A DNA stretch of 64,000 bases from an uncultured Acidobacteriia bacterium. Its GTDB lineage: Bacteria; Acidobacteriota; Terriglobia; Bryobacterales; Bryobacteraceae. This document shows, piece by piece, positions 60,046 to 61,977 of this stretch (positions are counted from its first letter, which is position 1; each line of letters opens with the position of its first letter). A program made the translations under genes and the position numbers. The notes under the pieces are model-generated. The model was not told where the DNA came from and searched no databases. It saw only the letters and a program-made list of their open reading frames with translations. Where the stretch lies: assembly GCA_903925975.1 (NCBI GenBank), contig CAIYHG010000086.1, positions 1 through 64,000 on the forward strand. Reading direction: 5' to 3'.

Positions 60046-60264
60046 ATGAGCAAAGAGGACAGCATAGAAGTAACAGGAACGGTCCTGGAGAAGTTTCCCA
60101 GCGGTTTGTTCAGCGTTCAACTGGAGCACGAGCGCGTCGTTCTGGCGCATCTGGCCGGCAGATTGCGGAGAAACCGCATCCGCGTGCTGGCTGGCGACAA
60201 AGTCACCCTCGAACTGTCGCCCTACGATCTGACGAAGGGCAGAATCACCTTCAGACACAGGTAA
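60046..60264 (+). CDS. infA: Translation initiation factor IF-1
   Basis: The 72-residue OB-fold protein binds the 30S A site during initiation. [20 protein letters not shown] and [20 protein letters not shown] then [20 protein letters not shown] match IF-1 along its whole length. GGAGG lies five bases before ATG. Next to csp and away from the ribosomal-protein cluster it may be a second copy; only the rest of the genome can show that. Several usually acidic or Lys positions are Arg here, so it is more basic than common IF-1. Confidence 0.93.
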
Positions 60265-60444
60265 ACTGCGTCTTCCACCATTCGGCACTCCCGAGGGGCA
60301 GTTTGTGTATAGCATCACACATTCCCGTCCCCATCCCGTGATACAAATTCTGATAGACCGGCATTCACATCAGAGGGGTAGTATTTTCACGTGGCTCCGA
60401 CCAGCGCCGGTAACTCACTAGCGTGAAACCGTTTAGGTCATTTT

Positions 60445-61977
60445 ATGAGAGAGCCGAATCGCCCGGAAGAAAAGCGCCGTAGCCGTGCGCGAAGCACCGC
60501 CGCGACTATAATCAAGTCGGAGAGCGGGGTGGAAAAAACGAGAAACAGCCAGGGGAGGGCGAAGAAACCAGCCCAAGACGCAGTGGAGGACTTGGTAGCG
60601 GTTCTGTCGCAGAAGGTAGTGGGGCAGCCCGCGGCAACCCGCGTGATCGTGCCTTATATCCAGATGTTTCAGGCCGGGCTCGCGCCTGAAGGCCGCCCGG
60701 TTGGGGTGTTCCTGCTGCTGGGACCCACCGGAACGGGCAAGACCAAGACGGTGGAGGCCTTGGCCGAGGTGCTCCACGGCAGCGAGAAGAACGTGCTCAA
60801 GGTGGATTGCGGGGAGTTCCAGATGGAGCACGAGGTAGCCAAGCTCATCGGGGCGCCACCGGGATACCTGGGCCATCGCGAAACCCAGCCGATGCTTACG
60901 CAGCAGAAGCTGAACTCGGTGACCAGCGAAAAGTGCAGCCTCTCGCTGGTTCTGTTCGACGAGATCGAGAAGGCCGCCCCTTCGATGACGCGGCTGCTTC
61001 TGGGCGTGCTGGATAAGGGCGTGCTCCGGCTGGGCGACAATTCCACGGTCAACTTCGAGAAGAGCCTGGTCTTTCTTACCAGCAATCTGGGCGCGCGCGA
61101 AATGATGCGCGAGATCAACCCGGATTTCGGTTTCCAATCGGTTAGGACGCCGGACCGGACCGATCTTACCAACAAGTTGCAGAACATCGCCCTGGTATCG
61201 GTGCGGAAACGCTTCTCGCCGGAGTTCGTGAACCGGATCGATTGCATCATCACGTATCAGCCACTCACGGCCGAATCGCTCTCTGCCATCCTGGACCAGC
61301 AGATCACGGATCTGCAAAACCACGTGAATACGCGGCTCGGCAACCGCTCCTTCACGCTGGAGGTGCCGTTTGAGGCGCGGCAGTTCCTGCTGCGAAAGGG
61401 CACCAGCTCCGAATACGGCGCGCGCGAATTGAACCGCACGATTCACAGGCACCTGACGCAACCGCTGGCGACTTTGGTGGCCACCAACCAGATCAACGCG
61501 GGCGCTACGCTTCGAGTGGAGGCGCCCGAAGGGGCTGAGAAGCTCACGCTGCACACTATCGAGGGAGAGGCCGTGCGGGCGCCGGCGCACCCCACAGTGT
61601 TGCTGGTGGACGATAACCGCGACCTGCTGCACTTCCTGGAGCGGCTCATGGCGGACGCAGGCTGGCGGCTGCTGACGGCGGAATCGGCCACGGAGGCGCG
61701 TAAGCTGGTGGCCGAGAACAAGGTGAACGCCGCCCTGCTCGATTACATGCTGCCCGACGGCAACGGCGTGGAACTGGGCGTGGAGATTCTAACTTCTTCG
61801 CCAAAGGGGCTGGTGATCATCATGACGGGAACTATTCTTCCGCCGGAGGAAGAAGCGCTCTGCGAAGAGCACAATTTCCCGGTGTTGCGAAAACCGTTCC
61901 TCGCCTCGGACGTGATGAACCAGATCCGCAGCCGGCTCGTACCAGCGGGCAAGATAGCCAGGGCGGAGACTCGATAG
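60445..61977 (+). CDS. Clp-type AAA+ ATPase fused to a receiver domain
   Basis: The 510-residue protein has one Clp/Hsp100 D2-type AAA+ module and a C-terminal response-regulator receiver. After a basic N terminus come VVGQPAATRVIV, Walker A LLGPTGTGKTKTVEAL (residues 93-100), the pore-side GAPPGYLGH, Walker B LVLFDEIEKAAPSM, sensor 1 FLTSNLGAR, the Arg finger RFSPEFVNRID and sensor 2 SEYGARELNRTI. From about 382 the receiver has VDDN (Asp389, 390), phospho-acceptor Asp433 (LLDYMLPDGNG), MTGT and LRKPF, so it should be phosphorylatable. DFGFQ near residue 228 sits where ClpA/ClpX carry the ClpP-binding loop. No Clp N domain or D1 ring is present. Unfolding controlled by phosphorylation is inference. 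Confidence 0.85.
   Translation: MREPNRPEEKRRSRARSTAATIIKSESGVEKTRNSQGRAKKPAQDAVEDLVAVLSQKVVGQPAATRVIVPYIQMFQAGLAPEGRPVGVFLLLGPTGTGKTKTVEALAEVLHGSEKNVLKVDCGEFQMEHEVAKLIGAPPGYLGHRETQPMLTQQKLNSVTSEKCSLSLVLFDEIEKAAPSMTRLLLGVLDKGVLRLGDNSTVNFEKSLVFLTSNLGAREMMREINPDFGFQSVRTPDRTDLTNKLQNIALVSVRKRFSPEFVNRIDCIITYQPLTAESLSAILDQQITDLQNHVNTRLGNRSFTLEVPFEARQFLLRKGTSSEYGARELNRTIHRHLTQPLATLVATNQINAGATLRVEAPEGAEKLTLHTIEGEAVRAPAHPTVLLVDDNRDLLHFLERLMADAGWRLLTAESATEARKLVAENKVNAALLDYMLPDGNGVELGVEILTSSPKGLVIIMTGTILPPEEEALCEEHNFPVLRKPFLASDVMNQIRSRLVPAGKIARAETR

Follow-up and report, generated by a model that had tools for sequence, protein, structure and literature searches.

Can a Clp/Hsp100-type unfoldase be placed under two-component control by a receiver domain carried in its own polypeptide chain? 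This question is raised by a locus in the window, the 64,000-nucleotide stretch of DNA from an uncultured Acidobacteriia bacterium that was analysed here. At positions 60445–61977 of the plus strand, the coordinates given by the first-pass annotation, a complete open reading frame of 510 amino acids encodes a Clp-type AAA+ unfoldase with a single ring and, in the same chain, a receiver. The receivers known to control Clp proteolysis, CpdR (PMC11519897) and RssB (PMC7226468), act in trans on the Clp protease, and their control passes through separate adaptors. No fusion of a receiver with a Clp unfoldase was reported in the open-access literature that we searched, an absence that is not proof.

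The fused protein consists of a complete Clp D2-type AAA+ module and a complete receiver. Specifically, three Pfam families match over their curated cut-offs: AAA_2, the large ATPase domain, at residues 84–267 (60694–61245; E = 7.9e-36, supported by the fold match), ClpB_D2-small, which contains the sensor 2 arginine, at residues 274–358 (61264–61518; E = 9.4e-16), and Response_reg at residues 385–494 (61597–61926; E = 6.5e-14). The AAA+ motifs GPTGTGKT, GYLG, LFDE, TSN (sensor 1), NRID (arginine finger) and GAREL (sensor 2) are all present and conserved, the catalytic residues being essentially invariant among relatives, with the Walker A motif GPTGTGKT at residues 93–100 (60721–60744), pore loop 1 (GYLG) at residues 140–143 (60862–60873) and the Walker B motif LVLFDE at residues 168–173 (60946–60963), each assigned by motif and alignment. 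The corresponding pore motif is PGYL or PGYV in 102/102 single-ring members. The Pfam search matched neither an N domain nor a D1 (first) ring, and the place of both in other Clp proteins is taken by a basic N-terminal tail of mostly low model confidence (residues 1–48; 60445–60588). The start position of the frame is kept among relatives. A 399-amino-acid open reading frame runs antisense to the fusion at window positions 60433–61632, minus strand, and antisense frames recur among relatives; such frames are most probably coding-strand shadows in GC-rich DNA.

An AlphaFold2 monomer model, built from a 55-sequence alignment, has a mean pLDDT of 84, with a well-folded AAA+ core and a classic (beta-alpha)5 receiver. 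Most of residues 1–43 are predicted to be disordered, the pLDDT being below 50 over residues 11–42, and the linker between the small AAA+ domain and the receiver (residues 363–383; 61531–61593) is partly of low confidence, being weak at residues 375–380. The pTM is 0.62, and the placement of ring and receiver relative to each other is therefore unreliable. In a Foldseek search, ClpC of the S. aureus MecA/ClpC/ClpP complex ranks first (E = 1.3e-29), and ClpB NBD2 crystal structures align with a target TM of up to 0.87.

Among NCBIfam profiles, the AAA+ part scores 221, 200 and 195 bits with ClpB, ClpV and ClpA, respectively, all over the D2 region, versus 36 bits with ClpX against a cut-off of 359. 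The full-length cut-offs of the ClpB, ClpV and ClpA profiles are far from reached because the N domain and D1 are missing. The PDB sequence matches of the ATPase are ClpB, ClpC, ClpA, Hsp104 and CLPB; those of the C-terminus are NtrC-type and GGDEF-type receivers. In an AAA+ domain tree, from which ClpX was left out, the single-ring proteins form a clade with 100 percent support, on a long branch apart from the D2 domains of ClpB and ClpC. This clade, which seems undescribed, contains a distant subgroup (L110–L114), a paralogue clade found across Acidobacteriota and an infA-linked subgroup to which the window protein belongs. By domains, motifs and an aromatic-hydrophobic pore loop of the GY[VL]G type, the fusion is a D2-type member of the Clp/Hsp100 superfamily, ATP-driven hexameric unfolding being inferred; it does not qualify for class I Clp (ClpA/B/C/E), given its single ring, disordered N-terminus, separate clade and missed cut-offs. 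Two other assignments were rejected. A ClpX with a receiver is ruled out by the low ClpX score and the lack of a zinc-binding domain, and a sigma54-AAA+ regulator by the Sigma54_activat profile, which gives only a weak overlapping match (6e-7 versus 8e-36 for AAA_2).

An AAA_2 search of the bacterium's own genome returned only five strong matches, namely two double-ring Clp proteins (both with an LGF/FGF loop), ClpX, the fusion and a paralogue of the fusion. No clear ClpB was found in this search, which may reflect a gap in a genome that is 86 percent complete. The paralogue (L131:2045-3298, minus strand, in G000:C113) is receiver-less, shares about 46 percent identity with the fusion, carries a VGF loop and belongs to the same single-ring clade; its orthologues are scattered across Acidobacteriota.

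The C-terminal domain has the acidic pair, the aspartate, the threonine or serine, the lysine and the (beta-alpha)5 fold of a receiver, and its phosphorylation by a cognate histidine kinase is inferred. Across 63 fused receivers, the phospho-acceptor D433 (61741–61743) and the conserved lysine K483 (61891–61893) are kept in all 63, as is the first residue of the acidic pair D389/D390 (61609–61614), the second being kept in 62/63, and the switch residue T461 (61825–61827) is threonine or serine in 59/63. The whole phosphorylation pocket is intact in 59 of the 63. Four loci (L054, L062, L064 and L067) have lost a pocket residue, either the switch threonine or one acidic residue, with the ATPase intact, and their receivers may possibly be phosphorylation-independent now. 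The aromatic switch position, three residues before the conserved lysine, is Val480 in the fusion and V, I or L in 62/63 receivers. An aromatic residue here is classical of CheY-type receivers and is not universal among receivers. Without it, receiver output may use a surface other than that of the usual Thr-Tyr route. Additionally, all fused receivers group together when set against 14 other receivers of the bacterium's own genome, and a single fusion event is therefore favoured.

The ring carries a candidate ClpP-docking loop. The FGF tripeptide at residues 228–230 (61126–61134) lies within a DFGFQ motif between sensor 1 and the arginine finger, at the position of IGL in ClpA and IGF in ClpX, and aligns with the loops of the bacterium's own ClpC (LGF) and ClpX (IGF). 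G229 and F230 are invariant among 55 aligned homologues, and a [FIVM]-G-[FY] tripeptide occurs in 102/102 single-ring members examined (FGF 75, IGF 21, VGF 3, MGF 2, FGY 1); a ClpB-type sequence of the same phylum (L112) has no such tripeptide. FGF thus fits the [LIVMF]-G-[FL]-type tripeptide expected of ClpP-partner unfoldases. This loop is a sequence marker that splits ClpP partners from independent unfoldases (PMC10149685). Because the loop is kept throughout, is such a marker, and the genome encodes one full-length ClpP (E = 2.8e-80), the single-ring unfoldase probably partners ClpP. This partnership is not shown, docking and degradation both being inferred, and the loop could conceivably be retained for other reasons.

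The first-pass annotation, made from the sequence alone, had described a full Clp D2-type AAA+ set followed by a receiver with the expected residues, and this held by Pfam, motifs and alignment. Its statement that N domain and first ring are absent held by Pfam and the disordered N-terminus. It had also placed DFGFQ at the ClpA IGL position and called ClpP binding possible; the position held, and the suggestion of binding is strengthened by the conservation in 102/102 members. It would have been refuted by an ATPase grouping with non-Clp ATPases, or by a receiver without an acidic pocket. Neither is the case: the best scores are with ClpB, ClpV and ClpA D2 and the nearest structures are ClpC D2 and ClpB NBD2, while the pocket residues are present in the alignment and the receiver fold in the model. 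Beyond these claims, the ATPase proved to be a separate single-ring clade, found with and without a receiver at the same infA locus.

A scan for relatives, limited to one genome per species, yielded at least 80 loci, about 62 fused and 18 without a receiver. The relatives are found in Acidobacteriota, mainly in Bryobacteraceae/Bryobacterales and additionally in Blastocatellia/Pyrinomonadaceae. Two labels, Acidimicrobiia for a receiver-less locus (L070) and Nevskia soli for a fused one (L038), possibly stem from mislabelled bins. Within the window's family, 120 of 121 sampled genomes have a match to the single-ring clade, a few only at paralogue-level identity, and roughly 45–50 of them carry the fusion, as counted by eye from open-frame length. 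An order-wide sample (n = 200) contains the infA-type protein in 168 genomes, with every listed match lying within the window's own family. Both halves of the fusion are under strong purifying selection: in 14 pairs the dN/dS of each domain is far below 1, although the more distant pairs approach saturation at synonymous sites. A plasmid or phage origin was rejected: in no record did the match span 80 percent of the fusion protein. In the tree, one protein with a receiver (L093) falls outside the receiver-less group, but a topology test does not reject a tree in which all fused proteins form one clade (p-AU 0.165, from 5000 replicates with a fast search). Gain of the receiver once and gain followed by loss are both compatible with these data, and we cannot choose between receiver-less forms that are ancestral and forms that are secondarily without a receiver.

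The chromosomal setting bears on what the receiver adds. The conserved upstream neighbour infA, encoding IF-1 (60046–60264, plus strand), marks a locus shared with receiver-less orthologues, which sit in the order infA-wecB-AAA-rsmI; the fused genes of the window's lineage are also found at infA. Receiver-less orthologues occupy this infA-linked site too, which indicates that the ring is viable alone and that the receiver is a regulatory addition; the persistence of these orthologues suggests that the ring can probably do its core job without the receiver. Where a genome has both forms, any infA or wecB neighbour seen belongs to the receiver-less copy, the fused copy lying elsewhere. The spacer between infA and the fusion (60265–60444, plus strand) is conserved in length and contains a patchily conserved TGATACAAA-like stretch; it may hold a promoter of its own, a tentative suggestion, and no sigma-70 consensus match was found in it. 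At nine loci (L023:9523-10278 and eight others), a conserved protein of about 250 amino acids is encoded 5–77 bp downstream of the fused gene. It has no Pfam match, its N-terminal half resembles a degenerate receiver by eye, and in part of the lineage it probably shares a transcript with the fusion; it is absent in the window.

The contig that holds the window (C86) has no HATPase_c match, versus about 43 over the cut-off in the whole genome, and infA-linked fused copies have nearby kinases in 5/44 cases, about the background rate. The fused gene is an orphan, without a linked kinase, in the window's lineage. In three Blastocatellia loci (L058, L063 and L065), histidine kinases lie 134–774 bp downstream on the same strand; upstream of the fused gene are LuxR-type response regulators in L063 and L065, and a hybrid kinase, receivers and an Hpt protein in L058. 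These clusters are large, with PAS/GAF kinases around the fused gene. At a fourth Blastocatellia locus (L059) no kinase was seen on a short contig. Two dispersed related copies (in G156 and G228) have a gene for a PAS-kinase-receiver hybrid 65–173 bp away on the opposite strand. The first-pass annotation had proposed switching by a two-component signal and a search for a co-occurring orphan kinase. The search found no linked kinase in the window's lineage and linked kinases in the three Blastocatellia loci; this clustering is the only positional support for two-component switching, which remains an inference.

Taken together, the architecture, the integrity of the motifs, the purifying selection, the single receiver group and the receiver-less orthologues are shown, and we consider that they are best explained by a single-ring, ClpP-partnering unfoldase gated in cis by phosphorylation, a reading to which we give a probability of about 0.55. 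The lack of a linked kinase in the window's lineage, the missing aromatic switch, the four damaged pockets and the chance that the loop is retained for other reasons all speak against it. Hexamer formation, ClpP docking, phosphorylation, the direction of control, the kinase and the substrates are all inferred, without biochemistry. In the proposed mechanism, the Clp/Hsp100-type unfoldase would form a hexamer, thread substrates through its GYLG-lined pore and dock ClpP via its FGF loops, as a ClpX-like single ring but of the ClpA/ClpC D2 type. The receiver fused behind the small AAA+ domain would serve as a switch within the chain. In the window's lineage, D433 would be phosphorylated by a histidine kinase whose gene lies elsewhere in the genome, and this would change how the ring assembles, engages substrates or docks on ClpP. 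If NtrC-type AAA+ proteins are a guide, phosphorylation would more likely relieve inhibition than impose it.

The main rival, which remains possible, would make the receiver an adaptor or docking platform built into the chain, performing in cis the role of CpdR and RssB. It would recruit substrates or localise the ring, and phosphorylation would alter its binders rather than the working of the ring. In its favour, the two best-known Clp-linked receivers act in this way in trans (PMC11519897, PMC7226468), the N domain at which docking usually takes place is missing from the fusion, the receiver lacks the aromatic switch, and receivers with damaged pockets are retained in L054, L062, L064 and L067. 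Against it, the receiver-less orthologues at the same locus do without such a platform, and the pocket, intact in 59/63 receivers, would be superfluous for a simple docking surface.

An unlikely alternative would make the ring a ClpP-independent remodelling or disaggregating enzyme under two-component control, like ClpB or CLPB/SKD3. ClpB is indeed the best single profile and sequence match, and mitochondrial CLPB/SKD3, a ring-forming Clp relative, is a disaggregase that works without ClpP (PMC10090083). However, every one of the 102 single-ring members has the tripeptide that the ClpB-type sequence of the phylum lacks, and it is the presence of this loop that distinguishes ClpP partners from independent unfoldases (PMC10149685). 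That the fusion is an artefact of annotation, assembly or frameshift, or a decaying gene, can be all but excluded: the source genome is fragmented (200 contigs, 86 percent complete), yet about 60 genomes, each assembled on its own, contain the same full-length frame, and both domains show a dN/dS far below 1.

If cis-gating by phosphorylation is correct, the unfoldase itself would take the place of a response regulator's output domain, and the fusion would make it possible to study in one simple protein how an unfolding ring is gated by phosphorylation, with the receiver-less orthologues at the same chromosomal site as a natural control. It suggests that protein destruction may be wired directly to environmental sensing in soil Acidobacteria. 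A bolder reading, which as a joint claim could equally well prove right or wrong, is that the fusion represents a class of bacterial AAA+ proteases whose unfoldase subunit doubles as a response regulator. In such a protease, two-component signals would act on degradation directly within one molecule, without a transcription step or a separate adaptor, and the class would have evolved once in Acidobacteriota on an undescribed single-ring Clp family.

The fusion can be compared with several known systems. With the ClpXP adaptors CpdR and RssB it would share control of a Clp protease by receiver phosphorylation; those are separate proteins acting in trans, whereas the receiver of the fusion lies in cis behind a ring without an N domain. 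The NtrC family likewise combines a receiver and an AAA+ ring, of the sigma54 type, in one chain, and is a functional precedent for a receiver that controls the assembly of a ring. It differs in its N-terminal receiver, its other AAA+ clade and its DNA-binding output, a part that the fusion does not have. The ClpA/ClpC D2 ring with ClpP shares AAA_2 and D2-small, the GYLG-type pore loop, the sensor and arginine-finger residues and the ClpP tripeptide loop, and is the best fold match. Unlike ClpA and ClpC, the fusion lacks the N domain, D1 and M-domain, belongs to a separate single-ring clade and carries a C-terminal receiver. ClpX, too, has only one AAA+ ring, and its ClpP loop is of the IGF type, but the fusion has no zinc-binding domain, and its pore and core are of the ClpA/B/C D2 type. 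Human CLPB/SKD3, among the PDB sequence matches, has the same single Clp D2-type ring; it is a mitochondrial protein with an ankyrin N-terminal part and, unlike the fusion, has no receiver.
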